DNA from: Clostridia bacterium
Lineage (GTDB): Bacteria > Bacillota > Clostridia > Christensenellales > Aristaeellaceae
Assembly: GCA_017547805.1 (NCBI GenBank)
Contig: JAFYOR010000026.1
Location: 1 to 63,891, forward strand
DNA length: 63,891 nucleotides
Direction: 5' to 3'
Shown one piece after another: positions 37,582 through 42,805 of this stretch; position 1 is the first letter of the stretch; the number at the start of each line of letters is the position of its first letter. The translations under genes were made by a program, and so were the position numbers. Below the pieces are notes generated by a model that did not search any database, had not been told where the DNA came from, and saw only the letters and a program-made list of their open reading frames with translations.

Positions 37582-38532
37582 TTATCCATTTTGCACAATT
37601 TTATCCCCGCCATTTGACCGAAGATGTTCGCCGTATTTCTTCATTTCGCTGGGGTTTTTTCCTGTATATTTCAGAAAATTCCGGTTGAATGTCGCAATGG
37701 ATGCAAAGCCGCACGTCTCCGCAATGCGCGAAATTGAATCGCCAGCGTTGGTGCGGATCATGCGCACCGCGCGGTCGATGCGGTAGCGGTTGAGGTATTC
37801 CACAGGCGTTTCCCCCATCGCCGCAACAAACACCTTCCTGAAATGGCTCTCGCTCATGGCGCAGCTGCGTGCAAGCTGCGCAATCTTGATTTCAGTATGG
37901 TACTGCTCGGAAATGTAGAGCAACGCCGGCTGCACAGGATTGTATGGCGCATTCTCCCGCTCCGAAGACAGACCGTCAGTCTCTATTCTGCGCAAAACGC
38001 GCATCAGAATCAACAGCAGAATCGCTTCAAGCTCTGCCGTGTATTCTTCCGCCGTGCGGCACTTGATATCGAACATGCGCTCAATCAGCCATGCAATGTC
38101 GCTGCGCGCGCTTTCATTATCCAGACAGACGCCCTGCCTGTTTCCCCGGAGCAGCTGCATCAGCGAATCCCGGCAGTTGGGCATCGCATCGCGGATCAGC
38201 CTTTCCTGATCCACCGCAATATATCGCCAGCGCGTCATGGGCAGCCCTTCGCTCTTCTGGCTGTGAAGCGCGCCCTCCGGGATGATGATCACCGTGCCCG
38301 CCTGAAACGGCTGGGATTCCAGCCCTTCACGCAGGATCATGCCGTTCCCCGCGACGCACAATCCGATTTCCATGCAGTTATGGCTGTGGCTTTCGTCGTG
38401 CGCATACGGCGGATAGCTGATCATATCCGTCATCGCAAGGATCATCGAATCGCCGCGCATGGGATAATCGCGCCGCTCTGCATTGTCCGTGACGGGCAGA
38501 AGCCATTCAAACGCCTCTTGATTAGATCTCAT
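37582..38532 (-). CDS. AraC family transcriptional regulator
   Basis: A 316-residue regulator. Residues about 30-150 form a cupin sensor (HDESHSHNCMEIGLCVAGNG, then QAGTVIIIPEGALHSQ). Residues about 205-305 hold the two AraC helix-turn-helix motifs: IKIAQLARSCAMSESHFRKV and ISRIAETCGFASIATFNRNF. It lies just upstream of the binding-protein gene on the same strand, so it likely controls the importer through the palindrome at 37505-37528. Its start overlaps the end of the small membrane-protein gene by 11 bp, tying it also to the radical SAM cluster. It has no strong ribosome binding site of its own. Confidence 0.88.
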   Translation of the reverse strand: MRSNQEAFEWLLPVTDNAERRDYPMRGDSMILAMTDMISYPPYAHDESHSHNCMEIGLCVAGNGMILREGLESQPFQAGTVIIIPEGALHSQKSEGLPMTRWRYIAVDQERLIRDAMPNCRDSLMQLLRGNRQGVCLDNESARSDIAWLIERMFDIKCRTAEEYTAELEAILLLILMRVLRRIETDGLSSERENAPYNPVQPALLYISEQYHTEIKIAQLARSCAMSESHFRKVFVAAMGETPVEYLNRYRIDRAVRMIRTNAGDSISRIAETCGFASIATFNRNFLKYTGKNPSEMKKYGEHLRSNGGDKIVQNG

Positions 38533-39085
38533 AAGGAAATACCTTGCCCGGGCAGATCAGTCTCATGTTGTTGACCATCTCTGCGGACGGATTCATGTAC
38601 GCTTTCACGTATCTTCCCGCGTCCGCGCCATATCCTTTGGCATAGAGCACAAGGCTGGGACGGTTGACGTCCTGCGCGTTGATATAGTAGGTCACGCGCT
38701 TGGGCTGCGCATTTGCCGTCAGGGCCTCCGCTTCTTCAAGGCGGGAGGTTCCCTCCTCGGACATGATAATCAGTTCCGTCAGATCCAGCTCCATGAACTG
38801 CACAACCTTCGGCCTCTGGCGCACGCCGCTGTAGCGAATCACCCTGAACATCGTTCCGTCAAGCTGGTATTCATAGCTCACCTTGTGTTCGCCCATGAAA
38901 TACCACGTGAAGAACAGCGTGCCCAGCGTGGGAATCAGCCACAGGAAGCCGCCGTACATGCCGATAATCACAAACACAAACACGGAAAAATACAACAGAA
39001 ACTGAATCACGCGCGTGGGGGTGTGAATCTTTCTGTCCACCACGCAGCGGCAGGAAATGTTTGAAATCACGCTGGCGTCGAGCAT
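38522..39085 (-). CDS. Uncharacterised membrane protein of the radical SAM cluster
   Basis: A 187-residue protein. After a short start (MLDASVISNISCRCVV), two transmembrane helices follow at about residues 26-65 (QFLLYFSVFVFVIIGMYGGF and LIPTLGTLFFTWYFMG). The remaining 120 residues are cytoplasmic and beta-rich (VSYEYQLDGTMFRVIRYSG, later RVTYYINAQDVNRPSLVLYA), perhaps a PH-like fold. The ATG at 39085 has GGAGG eight nt upstream; the longer frame to 39196 has none. It lies 167 bp downstream of the radical SAM gene. I do not recognise the family. Confidence 0.65.
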   Translation of the reverse strand: MLDASVISNISCRCVVDRKIHTPTRVIQFLLYFSVFVFVIIGMYGGFLWLIPTLGTLFFTWYFMGEHKVSYEYQLDGTMFRVIRYSGVRQRPKVVQFMELDLTELIIMSEEGTSRLEEAEALTANAQPKRVTYYINAQDVNRPSLVLYAKGYGADAGRYVKAYMNPSAEMVNNMRLICPGKVFPYEI

Positions 39086-39252
39086 ACATGCATCCTCCGG
39101 AAAATAATCTGTTCCGTCGATTATACCATATTTCCCCCCGGCAAGGCAATCTGCATCATGCCGGTTCTTGTATCGCCCGGCAGTCATATACAGCAAAAGA
39201 GGCGGCGCCAGCGTGCCGCCTCTTTATCGATCAGACATTGATCAGCCATTGA

Positions 39253-40650
39253 TCATCCATTGGTCGTGAATTCTTCCTGCTTTTCAGGATAGCGCTCTGC
39301 GATTTCCGCATAGATGCGCAAAGACTGAAGCGTATCCGCCTTCGATGCACGGCAGAAGCTTTCAGGAACGCTGTCCATCACCGAGCCGTCGGGCTTGAGA
39401 ATATCCTTAAAGCAGACCGTGCATCTGCGCTGCGCCCAGCAGTTCGCGCATGTTCGATTGTACAATTCCCGCGACCGCTCGTAAAGCTCACGCAGCTTCT
39501 CCTCGTCAAATCCGTTGTCAAGATCGCCAAGAATCAGCTTATCACAAGCCGTTTCGCACAAACCGAACTGTCCATCATAATGAACAAACAGCTTGTCCAT
39601 GATCGGAAAACAGCTTCCAATGATGCCCGGATCATTTTTCCGATACAGGATGCGATTGTGAATGGCGCGCATCCTGTTGCCAAAATACCCTTCCAGCACC
39701 GGATCAAACGATGCCAGATACGCACGTCCGGGATCAAAGCGCCGGTCTTGCGTCTCTTCACCGCGGAGGATAGCGTCAATCTTTTCATTTCCGTCCTGCT
39801 GGCGGATATGCGTGACAATATCCGGCGCACGCTGAAGCTCGCTGTGAAAAAACTCCGCCAGCGCCTGAAGGTTCTCGGGACGGGCAATATTGGAAAGAAA
39901 CCTGATCTGGTTTTCCCACACCTCGGGAAACTCCGCACGGATCATGCGCAGATTGGTCATAATCCGCTCAAGGCTGCCCTGCCCGGAAAGCATCTTGCGA
40001 TGCAGGTCATGAAACGGACCGTTGAGCGTCACATTCACGCGCACATCCGGATTCTTTTTGAGCCACTGCGCAGCGTCGCGGCCAAGCAGCACGCCGTTGC
40101 TGGTGAAGCGGAAGCTCAGCTGTCTGCCCTTCATCCTTTCCCGCGCATACGTGACGGCATACTGCAGCCGTTCCATACACATGAGTACCTCGCCGCCGTA
40201 AAGATCGACCATGATCTGCCCGCTGTCCGCGTTGTGCTGCGCAAAGAAATCAATGCTGCGGCGAATCGTGTCAAACGGCATATCCGCATTGGCGTGGGGC
40301 ATCATGTGGGCATAGTTGCCGGAATAGACGCAGTAATCGCAATCAAGGTTGCATCGGCAGGTCAGCTGCAGGAGCAGCGTGGGGATATGCGTCTTGATAT
40401 ATGCCATATATTCTTCAAAGCTATGCTCCCAGATGACTCCGGCAAGCGGCTTATCCGGCAAATGATGCTTTTCCCTCAGATAAGCGTAGACCGCCTGTTT
40501 GGTTTCCTCCAGCGTCGGTCGCACAAGGCTGTCGCTCACCGCCATGATCCTGCCCGTTCGCCCGTCGTATGCATATACCTTGTCTGAGGAAACGGCAAAC
40601 ACCTTCACCATATCGCTTTTATGCGCAGGCTTCTTCATCTTCTTCATCAT
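39253..40650 (-). CDS. Radical SAM/SPASM peptide maturase
   Basis: A 465-residue enzyme. Residues about 14-85 are a precursor-binding-like N-terminal region. The radical SAM cluster motif CNLDCDYC has cysteines 100, 104 and 107, followed by VYSGNYAHMMPHA, a pattern I associate with clostridial Cys-rich-peptide maturases (CcpM-like). VDLYGGEVLM is the SAM-binding GGE motif. A C-terminal SPASM domain has many cysteines (FGLCETACDK, then CANCWAQRRCTVCF and SFCR) for auxiliary iron-sulfur clusters. Such enzymes make thioether or carbon-carbon links in ribosomal peptides. The start at 40650 has GAGGA about 8 nt upstream and overlaps the 52-residue peptide gene. ATG 40665 and 40611 are alternatives. 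Confidence 0.85.
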   Translation of the reverse strand: MMKKMKKPAHKSDMVKVFAVSSDKVYAYDGRTGRIMAVSDSLVRPTLEETKQAVYAYLREKHHLPDKPLAGVIWEHSFEEYMAYIKTHIPTLLLQLTCRCNLDCDYCVYSGNYAHMMPHANADMPFDTIRRSIDFFAQHNADSGQIMVDLYGGEVLMCMERLQYAVTYARERMKGRQLSFRFTSNGVLLGRDAAQWLKKNPDVRVNVTLNGPFHDLHRKMLSGQGSLERIMTNLRMIRAEFPEVWENQIRFLSNIARPENLQALAEFFHSELQRAPDIVTHIRQQDGNEKIDAILRGEETQDRRFDPGRAYLASFDPVLEGYFGNRMRAIHNRILYRKNDPGIIGSCFPIMDKLFVHYDGQFGLCETACDKLILGDLDNGFDEEKLRELYERSRELYNRTCANCWAQRRCTVCFKDILKPDGSVMDSVPESFCRASKADTLQSLRIYAEIAERYPEKQEEFTTNG

Positions 40651-40777
40651 ATGCCGCTTCCTCATCGTCCACTTCCGTAATCCACATGATCAAAGTCGGA
40701 AAGGTTTCACTCAGCCCACCGAACAAGCCTGCAGCAACTACAAGCATCAGGCTGAACAAATGGCCGATGGCACTCAT
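40619..40777 (-). CDS. Small hydrophobic-acidic peptide, 52 residues
   Basis: ATG at 40777 is preceded by AGGAGG six nt upstream, a textbook site. Residues 5-22 are hydrophobic (GHLFSLMLVVVAAGLFGG), a single membrane helix or leader; the C-terminal third is acidic (EVDDEEAAYDEEDEEACA) and ends with one cysteine. The frame overlaps the start of the radical SAM gene by 32 bp, implying translational coupling. It may be a second precursor, a membrane partner or a chaperone for the maturase. I know of no homologue by sight. Confidence 0.7.
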   Translation of the reverse strand: MSAIGHLFSLMLVVAAGLFGGLSETFPTLIMWITEVDDEEAAYDEEDEEACA

Positions 40778-40801
40778 ACGCAGCCCTCCTTTATCTCTCG
40801 C

Positions 40802-41242
40802 TCAGCGTCCGGAGCCGGCAAACGGGCAGTAATTCTGCGTGCCGGAAGTCGTCCTGGCGCACTGGCCCGGCGTATAGCCGCCAAAGGACACGTTCGCTCC
40901 ACGGTTCATGGAGGAAGAAATCACCATGCCGCCGTCAGCGTCCAGATCGGCATCGTCGGCGTCGTCAGCGTCGTCGGCGTCCGTCTCATCGGTATCGTCG
41001 TCGTCCGCTTCGTCCTCATCCTGTTCGTCGTCCGCATCTTCGTCCGCATCTTCGTCCATGTCTTCATCCATATCTTCGTCCATGTCTTCGTCCATGTCTT
41101 CATCCATGTCTTCGTCCATGTCTTCGTCCATGTCTTCGTCCATGTCTTCGTCCATGTCGTCATCCATCTCGTCTGCCATGCCGTTCTCCGGATCAAGCAT
41201 GCCCAGCACGGTTTTCTTGATGATCTTGGAAATAAAGCCCAT
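40802..41242 (-). CDS. Acidic repeat protein with Cys-containing tail, candidate maturase substrate
   Basis: A 146-residue protein with three parts: an amphipathic start (MGFISKIIKKTVLGMLDPEN); a very acidic middle with nine exact MDED repeats, then ADED and DADD runs; and a C-terminal 40 residues rich in Gly/Ser/Asn (SSSMNRGANVSFGGYTPGQC, ARTTSGTQNYCPFAGSGR) with two cysteines ten residues apart. Leader-like front and short Cys/Gly/Ser core fit a RiPP precursor; the acidic repeats could instead bind calcium or other cations. The start is strong (GAGGAGG seven nt upstream). It is 24 bp before the small peptide and maturase genes on the same strand. Confidence 0.75.
   Translation of the reverse strand: MGFISKIIKKTVLGMLDPENGMADEMDDDMDEDMDEDMDEDMDEDMDEDMDEDMDEDMDEDMDEDADEDADDEQDEDEADDDDTDETDADDADDADDADLDADGGMVISSSMNRGANVSFGGYTPGQCARTTSGTQNYCPFAGSGR
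41033..41175. repeat. 12-bp tandem repeat encoding MDED
   Basis: A run of GTCTTCGTCCAT-type units (plus-strand view) with few synonymous changes, giving nine exact and several decayed MDED copies in the minus-strand protein. Copy number is likely variable by slippage. Confidence 0.9.
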
Positions 41243-41312
41243 GTTCAGTCCTCCTCATTCATTTTTGTATGTACAAGGTAATTCTCGTCCAGCCAGCTGG
41301 TCTCCTTCCGGC

Positions 41313-41858
41313 TTACGCGCCCTTTTCAGCCGCCAGCTTCTTTTCCGCATGCTCCTCAGCGGGCTTTCTGGCCAGCTCCTTGCCCATCTTCTGGCCTTCC
41401 TTCATCCACTGCTTCATTTCTTCCTTGGTGGCCTTCTTGCCCTGTGCGCGGCGGTGGAAGAAATTCTTTGCCGTCATGCCAACCGCAAAGGCGGCTGCGC
41501 CGCAGACAACGCCGTCGGCAATCAGGAACGGCACATACGTCACGGGATTGGACTTGAGCAGGGAATTCGTGATTTTCACGCCCATGAACATAATGGAGTA
41601 GGACGTTCCTGCCGCCTTGAAAAACTGTTTGATCAGATCCGCCGCGTCGTCCTTGGTCAGCTGCAGATCGTAGCAGTTTGCAATGGCAATCACACCGGCG
41701 CCCATCGCCGCGCTGACCGCGACCATATCAAGGAGAATGGGGACAACGCCCAATCCGACCGCCGCCACCATCATCGCATTGACTGCAAGATCCGCCTTAC
41801 GGTCCATTTCCTGAAGCTGCTCCGGCGTGAACTTCTTCATCATCTTCTTGCTTTCCAT
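41313..41858 (-). CDS. DUF697-like membrane protein
   Basis: A 181-residue protein with a charged start (MESKKMMKKFTPEQLQEMDR) and two or three hydrophobic helices: VAAVGLGVVPILLDMVAVSA, AGVIAIANCYDLQLTKDDAA and a segment near VPFLIADGVVCGAAAFAVGM. The arrangement is like DUF697/YcjF-type domains that sit beside small GTPases, but no GTPase is here. The C-terminus is basic and lysine-rich (KKATKEEMKQWMKEGQKMGK). ATG 41858 has GGGGAG upstream. It lies 70 bp before the acidic repeat gene, so it likely starts the radical SAM transcript. Confidence 0.6.
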   Translation of the reverse strand: MESKKMMKKFTPEQLQEMDRKADLAVNAMMVAAVGLGVVPILLDMVAVSAAMGAGVIAIANCYDLQLTKDDAADLIKQFFKAAGTSYSIMFMGVKITNSLLKSNPVTYVPFLIADGVVCGAAAFAVGMTAKNFFHRRAQGKKATKEEMKQWMKEGQKMGKELARKPAEEHAEKKLAAEKGA

Positions 41859-41969: not shown

Positions 41970-42704
41970 TTAATCCTGCTGCGCCGGATGCGCCGCGTGC
42001 ATGAAGGCACGCACACGCGCCTCCTCCATCGGATTATGCGCCTGCCCGTCGTACTTGAAGCAGCTGCCCACAATGCCGCCGTCGGCAATCGCCAGCTGCG
42101 CGGGGGCGCTTTCCGGCGTCATGCCCGCGCCGACAATGAGCGGAAAATCGCCCATGATGCCGCGGAACGCGCTGATCTTCTCAATGTCCGTATCCATGCC
42201 CGTGCCTGCGCCCGTGACGACAATCGCGTCACAGCGCGTCATGCCGATGGCCAGGTCCTCCTCAAGGCTGCGTCCGGAAAGAACCGGCTGATACTTGAAT
42301 CGCACGCCGCCCAGCACAAACACCGGATACTTCGCGCGGACCTCGGCGATCATCTTTCCATACGCCTCGTCACGATTGGGGTTGAGATGTCCGCAGACGG
42401 AATCCACCTGCATGAACTTCGCGCCGTAGCGATGCGCCAGCTCGCAGCTCATCTCAAAATCACCAAGGACATTCACGCCGTATACCACCTGATCGCTGTA
42501 ATCCGCTTTAAGCATCTTCAGCGCGTCAATCACGTCCAGCGTGTCGCCGAAGTAATTCTCCACGAGCACGGCGTCAACACCGCAGCGGATCATCATTTCA
42601 ATCTCCTCGCGGGCAATGCGCATCGTCTCTTCCCTGTCATAGCCGCGCAGATGCAGCATGCCGATGATGGGCTTATCCGTTCCAAATACTTCCTGAATCG
42701 TCAT
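41970..42704 (-). CDS. BtpA/SgcQ family protein
   Basis: A 244-residue barrel protein. KPIIGMLHLRGYDREETMRI near the start, AVLVENYFGDT, GVNVLGDFEMSCELAHRYGA and AIVVTGAGTGMDTDIEKI are the BtpA family landmarks. BtpA was first linked to photosystem I biogenesis in cyanobacteria; bacterial relatives such as SgcQ sit in sugar gene clusters with unknown chemistry. The ATG at 42704 follows AGGAGAGAG. The gene has no obvious functional neighbour; the next gene upstream is glf. Confidence 0.85.
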   Translation of the reverse strand: MTIQEVFGTDKPIIGMLHLRGYDREETMRIAREEIEMMIRCGVDAVLVENYFGDTLDVIDALKMLKADYSDQVVYGVNVLGDFEMSCELAHRYGAKFMQVDSVCGHLNPNRDEAYGKMIAEVRAKYPVFVLGGVRFKYQPVLSGRSLEEDLAIGMTRCDAIVVTGAGTGMDTDIEKISAFRGIMGDFPLIVGAGMTPESAPAQLAIADGGIVGSCFKYDGQAHNPMEEARVRAFMHAAHPAQQD

Positions 42705-42805
42705 TTTTCTCTCTCCTTCTTTAAAGCGCATCTGCTTTTGATGACACCATTATAGCGCACATTCCCCTGAGCCCGGTCGCTTTGCACGCGACTTCCCGGC
42801 ATAAT

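Follow-up and report, generated by a model that had tools for sequence, protein, structure and literature searches.

The window considered here is a 63,891-nucleotide stretch of DNA, contig JAFYOR010000026.1 of the Clostridia bacterium assembly GCA_017547805.1 (Christensenellales, Aristaeellaceae), which comprises 2.67 Mb in 113 contigs and is 83% complete. On its minus strand lies a small cassette (39253-41858) consisting of genes for a DUF697 membrane protein, a protein with Met-Asp-Glu-Asp (MDED) repeats, a doubtful 52-residue peptide (p52) and a radical S-adenosylmethionine (SAM) enzyme. The genes are transcribed in this order, with gaps of 70, 24 and 7 bp. The enzyme resembles those that mature ribosomally synthesized and post-translationally modified peptides (RiPPs), and the MDED protein is the foremost candidate for its substrate.

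Gene content and extent of the cassette

The following features were recognized in the cassette and immediately downstream of it.

41313..41858, minus strand: DUF697 membrane protein of 181 residues (PF05128)
40802..41242, minus strand: MDED protein of 146 residues, candidate precursor with an amphipathic helix, an acidic leader and a 41-residue tail; Shine-Dalgarno sequence GAGGAGG
41037..41167, minus strand: 12-bp tandem repeat encoding the MDED units (period 12, 10.9 copies, 90% matches)
40805..40927, minus strand: MDED tail, residues 106-146, candidate core with C128 and C139
40619..40777, minus strand: p52, doubtful 52-residue open reading frame (ORF), a hydrophobic helix followed by an acidic end with one Cys; Shine-Dalgarno sequence AAAGGAGG
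39253..40665 (probable start 40611), minus strand: radical SAM/SPASM-like maturase (PF04055)
39196..39225, minus strand: terminator-like hairpin 3' of the enzyme gene, recognized by folding energy
38522..39085, minus strand: p187, two-helix membrane protein, placed outside the cassette by comparison
37582..38532, minus strand: AraC regulator, placed outside the cassette by comparison

All six ORFs of a preliminary description of this DNA are present at the same coordinates, on the minus strand throughout. Its grouping of five genes with the AraC regulator does not hold, and a cluster of five or six genes was rejected. The p187 gene is found in 14 of the 28 other genomes of the genus. In all 14 retrieved loci it adjoins AraC and a sugar-binding protein gene; both permeases stand beside the pair in 9/14 loci and a beta-galactosidase in 8/14, the remaining 5/14 stretches stopping within the binding-protein gene. 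No cassette gene was matched at an E-value of 1e-6 in these 14 stretches. Because the block occurs in half of the other genus genomes without the cassette, p187 and AraC are counted with a conserved block for sugar uptake. The hairpin that follows the enzyme gene has a folding energy of −22.9 kcal/mol (z −3.84; 0/200 shuffles equally stable). It was not among the calls of a simple terminator scan, whose totals were close to chance (5 terminators vs 4.4 expected; 5 promoters vs 4.2 expected). Judged from gene neighbourhoods, the comparative argument for the downstream end of the unit is stronger than the hairpin.

The radical SAM enzyme and its relatives

The enzyme matches the radical SAM family PF04055 with 52.1 bits against a cut-off of 29.5 and carries the CX3CX2C motif as C105, C109 and C112. 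It retains ten Cys residues that are invariant across 30 aligned rows. Seven of these are C-terminal, as for two auxiliary clusters, so the ligands of SPASM-type auxiliary clusters appear to be present and cluster binding is predicted. Translation probably starts at 40611 (452 residues), which fits the N-termini of the relatives; residues 1-15 of the structural model have a predicted local distance difference test (pLDDT) score below 50. The codon usage of the enzyme, MDED and DUF697 genes is normal (scores 0.19 to 0.38).

The resemblance to clostridial Cys-rich-peptide maturases, pointed out in the preliminary description, was borne out to the extent that CcpM (TIGR04068) is the best NCBIfam family. 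The score, 216.6 bits, is far under the cut-off of 500, while two relatives, L071 and L093, reach 651.6 and 622.3 bits. The CcpM system consists of a TIGR04068 maturase, a CLI_3235-type precursor (TIGR04065) and a TIGR04066 protein. The enzyme shares its domain order and the ten Cys with this system; the window lacks a TIGR04066-like gene and a CLI_3235-type precursor. The best match of the predicted structure is CteB, a maturase of the SCIFF/ranthipeptide type (PDB 5wgg, 5why), over almost the whole chain, and anSME folds match as well. CteB is also the best PDB sequence match (E 4e-14). However, identity to CteB is only 16-18%, its six-Cys SCIFF substrate is absent here, and the SCIFF model TIGR03974 scores 90.3 bits against a cut-off of 425. 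The N-terminal region is modelled as strands and helices that align with the N-terminal part of CteB, with a profile match of 75.7% to the CcpM N-terminus. A domain similar to the RiPP recognition element (RRE) is tentatively predicted there from the model.

In the tree, the maturases of lachnocin, huazacin and the Apre_1838 sactipeptide stand on the same side as the enzyme, and PeaB on the opposite side (94/98, long branches); six genus sequences in this tree were labelled SCIFF-like without a family scan. Unlike the cassette, the lachnocin, huazacin and Apre_1838 loci have small precursors of their own and ATP-binding cassette (ABC) transporters, and the lachnocin model gives the enzyme 138.6 of the 550 bits needed. 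A weak viperin match in the defence library (E 3.5e-8) was ascribed to the common core.

The gene context of CcpM-like relatives was compared in a set of 115 enzyme matches in 105 loci, reduced to 106 after removing those shorter than 380 residues, those below 60 bits and identical rows. A TIGR04066-like partner lies within 4 kb in 106/106 relatives and a CLI_3235-type Cys-rich precursor within 1.5 kb in 82/106; the seeds (six precursors and one TIGR04066 protein) were drawn from the relatives' own loci, and these match by construction. In the window, the TIGR04066 query gave chance matches only, and none of 1312 frames matched a precursor at E 1. Conversely, no homologue of the DUF697, MDED, p52 or p187 proteins was found at E 0.1 near the 115 enzymes in 105 loci, where only six generic AraC matches appeared. 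Maturase homologues thus lie beside neither small gene (0/105 loci, E 0.1). This weakens the earlier proposal that the enzyme acts on one of them but does not refute it, because the relatives form another clade with their own precursors. The earlier view of a RiPP-maturase-type locus unlike the known classes is supported: close relatives were missing from the collections searched, none of the known precursor families was matched, and the TIGR04066 partner is absent.

The enzyme deviates at 17 of 58 columns conserved in the 106 relatives (next worst row: 4), and the changed residues invariant in all 106 include S213, D215 and P160. Its end branch in the tree is 2.9, against a median of 0.35. 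Together with the occurrence in a single genome, these features would suit a decaying or non-functional orphan whose enzyme drifted after the loss of its CcpM partners. The open frame and normal codon usage argue against decay, as does the retention of all ten conserved Cys despite changes at other invariant residues, and this explanation is highly improbable. As a natural variant in which the ten Cys are kept and otherwise invariant residues are changed, the enzyme tests the role of those residues. An 11-bp unit in about three copies spans its stop codon (window 39229-39262), suggesting slippage at the enzyme C-terminus.

Candidate substrates and proposed mechanism

The nine exact MDED units reported earlier were confirmed. 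Seven of the nine are identical in DNA, with three synonymous codon changes among the nine, and this exactness may reflect recent expansion or slippage. An amphipathic helix is possible over the first ~16 residues (moment 0.37-0.50 in 14-residue windows). All 60 Asp and Glu residues of the protein fall within residues 1-105. The tail, residues 106-146, has none, with 3 Lys/Arg and 20/41 Gly, Ser, Thr or Asn. It contains Cys as previously described, though two of them (C128 and C139); the single Cys belongs to p52. The abrupt switch from an acidic to an uncharged part looks like a leader followed by a core.

In the tentatively favoured explanation, given somewhat less than an even chance, the cassette is a self-contained, probably acquired unit whose enzyme modifies the MDED tail, most likely forming thioethers. 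With the RRE-like domain at its N-terminus the enzyme would bind the MDED protein, and it would cleave SAM at the CX3CX2C cluster. The SPASM-type auxiliary clusters would then be used to crosslink the uncharged 41-residue tail at C128 and C139. The amphipathic helix and the acidic repeat would together act as a long leader keeping the precursor soluble and close to the membrane, where the DUF697 protein could serve for immunity, as an anchor or as an export helper. Thioethers are the first-choice chemistry since the nearest solved enzyme makes them; PapB and QhpD join Cys to Asp or Glu. RiPP status and a thioether product are at candidate level.

Several observations weigh against this explanation. 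Acid-free stretches of 41 residues are not unusual (504/15556 windows in 47 proteins of the window, and 2/47 C-termini), so the leader and core argument rests on the contrast between the two parts and on the neighbouring enzyme. No known leader motif or precursor family was matched in the small proteins. The Cys-rich core of ranthipeptides or sactipeptides is lacking, with two Cys in the MDED tail and one in p52. According to the accessible part of PMC10885120, a double-glycine leader has hydrophobic residues at −4, −7 and −12; at Gly-Gly 104-105 of the MDED protein these are Ala, Asp and Asp, so that −7 and −12 do not fit the rule for C39 peptidases. On the enzyme side, the SPASM family PF13186 gives 15.9 bits and falls short of its cut-off of 21.5, the N-terminal domain has no match to SCIFF-like N-termini (profile probability 0.4%), and the chemistry may differ because 17 conserved positions are changed. 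Finally, the collections searched yielded no further copy of the cassette, which leaves no co-variation to draw on.

The repeat itself could be the substrate, its MDED units being modified successively (on Met, for instance, or on the side chains of Asp/Glu) to give a membrane-bound modified acidic polymer with the tail as an end piece. Acidic repeats are found in many proteins lacking radical SAM enzymes. This speaks against such a role, as do the possible recent slippage behind the seven DNA-identical units and the lack of any acidic ORF (at least 23 Asp/Glu in 50 residues) within 4 kb of the enzymes of the 106 relatives. Modification of the repeat is rather unlikely. A likeness is seen in TvgA/TvgB, where, in the portion of PMC9062424 consulted, a four-residue repeat stands beside a radical SAM/SPASM enzyme and TvgB modifies the TVGG repeat iteratively. 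The TVGG repeat is non-acidic, and the likeness is drawn from gene arrangement, not from enzyme homology. A bolder form of the idea proposes a new class, in which a deep-branching radical SAM/SPASM-type enzyme acts along the Met-Asp-Glu-Asp repeat and yields a membrane-anchored, multiply modified acidic polymer (redox-active or metal-binding, for instance) capped by the Cys tail and held by the DUF697 protein; this is decidedly unlikely.

For p52, a strong Shine-Dalgarno sequence and an end just ahead of the enzyme's likely start support the earlier call of a gene. Codon usage makes it doubtful: among 4000 true-frame samples of 52 codons, just 0.4% score as low. It had no significant match in 308 genomes of the family (best other E 0.017); a weak PHROG match (E 0.0072) is to a family of unassigned function. 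It is therefore taken as a possible but unproven gene, and may be a mere coupling leader. If it were the precursor, the hydrophobic N-terminus would be a leader or anchor and the acidic one-Cys end would carry the modification, for instance a thioether between Cys and Asp/Glu, with the MDED protein as an accessory. The position and ribosome-binding sequence of p52 favour this, and so does the placing of its Cys among acids: PapB forms thioethers between Cys and Asp/Glu (PMC9413430, seen in extract) and QhpD makes such thioethers within a protein (PMC8172795, likewise). Both profiles, PapB and QhpD/PeaB, match the enzyme weakly (114.6 and 109.1 bits, under cut-offs of 340 and 453), and the acids their chemistry uses are plentiful in the cassette. 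However, the PapB motifs place the acid after Cys, whereas in p52 all acids precede it, and the MDED tail has no Cys-Xn-Asp/Glu. Gly-Gly 20-21 of p52, with Leu, Ala and Leu at −4, −7 and −12, fits the C39 rule but lies inside an all-hydrophobic stretch, a weak fit. With its codon usage counted too, p52 as precursor is quite improbable.

The DUF697 assignment of the preliminary description is confirmed by Pfam (PF05128, E 2.8e-13, 50.4 bits against a cut-off of 27.7). The protein has hydropathy peaks up to 2.34, and a single-sequence model gives six helices (pLDDT 75, the highest among five models; the remaining four reached 41-52). Possibly the enzyme acts on this protein or on an unlinked one, with the MDED protein merely sharing the transcript and serving as an acidic chaperone, as an ion buffer or as a protein of the surface. 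QhpD offers a precedent for whole subunits (PMC8172795, in the part available), no leader family was recognized, and the DUF697 protein has the same distribution as the enzyme and a very weak geobacillin-26 match (E 0.019, 14.8 bits, cut-off 40). The predicted N-terminal RRE-like domain and the small Cys-rich peptides adjoining 82/106 relatives point instead to a peptide substrate. Another protein is unlikely as the target.

Distribution, export context and neighbouring genes

At E 1e-30 the enzyme matched only its own genome among 308 of the family, and 4 of 396 sampled genomes of the order. At E 1e-35 it matched 11 of 391 sampled genomes of the class; the counts for order and class include its own genome. 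At E 0.001, 20/29 genus genomes (itself included) have matches, the best other being 1.1e-17 and most covering the core only. The DUF697 protein at E 0.001 is likewise confined to its own genome among the 308. This common distribution, seen in one genome only, is weak evidence that fits a joint unit. Since the cassette is seen in one genome only, co-occurrence does not decide the choice of substrate.

An alignment scan of genome contigs returned 171 stretches with 152 relatives, at best 32% identical; it relied on one peptide pattern and would miss relatives without it. The loci of the best 80 of the 152 relatives were kept, as 78 loci. Single-protein scans for close enzyme relatives gave 14 stretches in genome contigs and 3 in viral contigs, and the alignment scan of viral contigs gave 30, none confirmed in any of the three. 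All enzyme matches in plasmids (79 records; 26.7% the best among the matches listed) and phages (20 records) are below 60% identity. The DUF697 protein had no plasmid or phage match, and its viral scan gave seven stretches, none confirmed; at E 0.1 the MDED tail matched nothing among plasmids or phages. Rfam gave no matches at gathering scores. Contamination is unlikely given the genus-typical downstream block on the same contig and the even guanine-plus-cytosine (GC) content. A mobile-element origin is unsupported: the GC content resembles that of the flanks, and no flanking repeats or tRNA were seen. An empty site could not be drawn, a GH20-type gene standing upstream of p187 in 8/14 relatives (1/8 named by Pfam) and BtpA being rare.

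The earlier statement that no protease or exporter is adjacent holds for the cassette itself, but an NHLP-type C39 peptidase/exporter is encoded elsewhere in the genome. It lies on an unlinked contig, C95, with TIGR03796 at 941.1 bits (cut-off 853.3) and TIGR03797 at 730.2 bits (709.4). The C39 match is not specific, as 11/28 other genus genomes also have it. The NHLP bacteriocin exporter pair (positions 6365-13772 of L217, G000:C95:13000-29424) is accompanied by a short NHLM HlyD-like fragment and, upstream, by genes for a SpoIIE/SiaA-type phosphatase and an RsbW-like protein. There was no obvious precursor at this locus among the small ORFs listed with Shine-Dalgarno sequences. In same-genus genomes (G014:C88, L218; G011:C150) a C39 exporter is encoded on one contig with radical SAM matches, which points to other RiPP loci in the genus.

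A literature search in which most subscription journals lay outside coverage found no system joining DUF697 with radical SAM enzymes, radical SAM enzymes and RiPPs with an acidic repeat, or aspartate-rich precursors. If the MDED protein is indeed modified, it would represent a new substrate architecture, in which a highly acidic leader or core made of repeats is attached to an amphipathic helix. Mining rules that look for Cys-rich cores or for known leaders would then overlook substrates of this type. The pairing of a very divergent radical SAM enzyme with an acidic-repeat protein would, if experiment confirms it, be an unusual peptide-modification system.

On the upstream side, a BtpA-family protein (window 41970-42731) is encoded beside the cassette. 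It is found in only 2/28 other genus genomes at E 1e-40, and the accessory region may therefore extend past the cassette. On the downstream side, p187, which has two helices and matches no Pfam family, is paired with AraC in front of a beta-galactosidase/ABC-transporter block, an arrangement conserved in 14 other genus genomes. This pair of a membrane protein and a regulator may act as a sensor.
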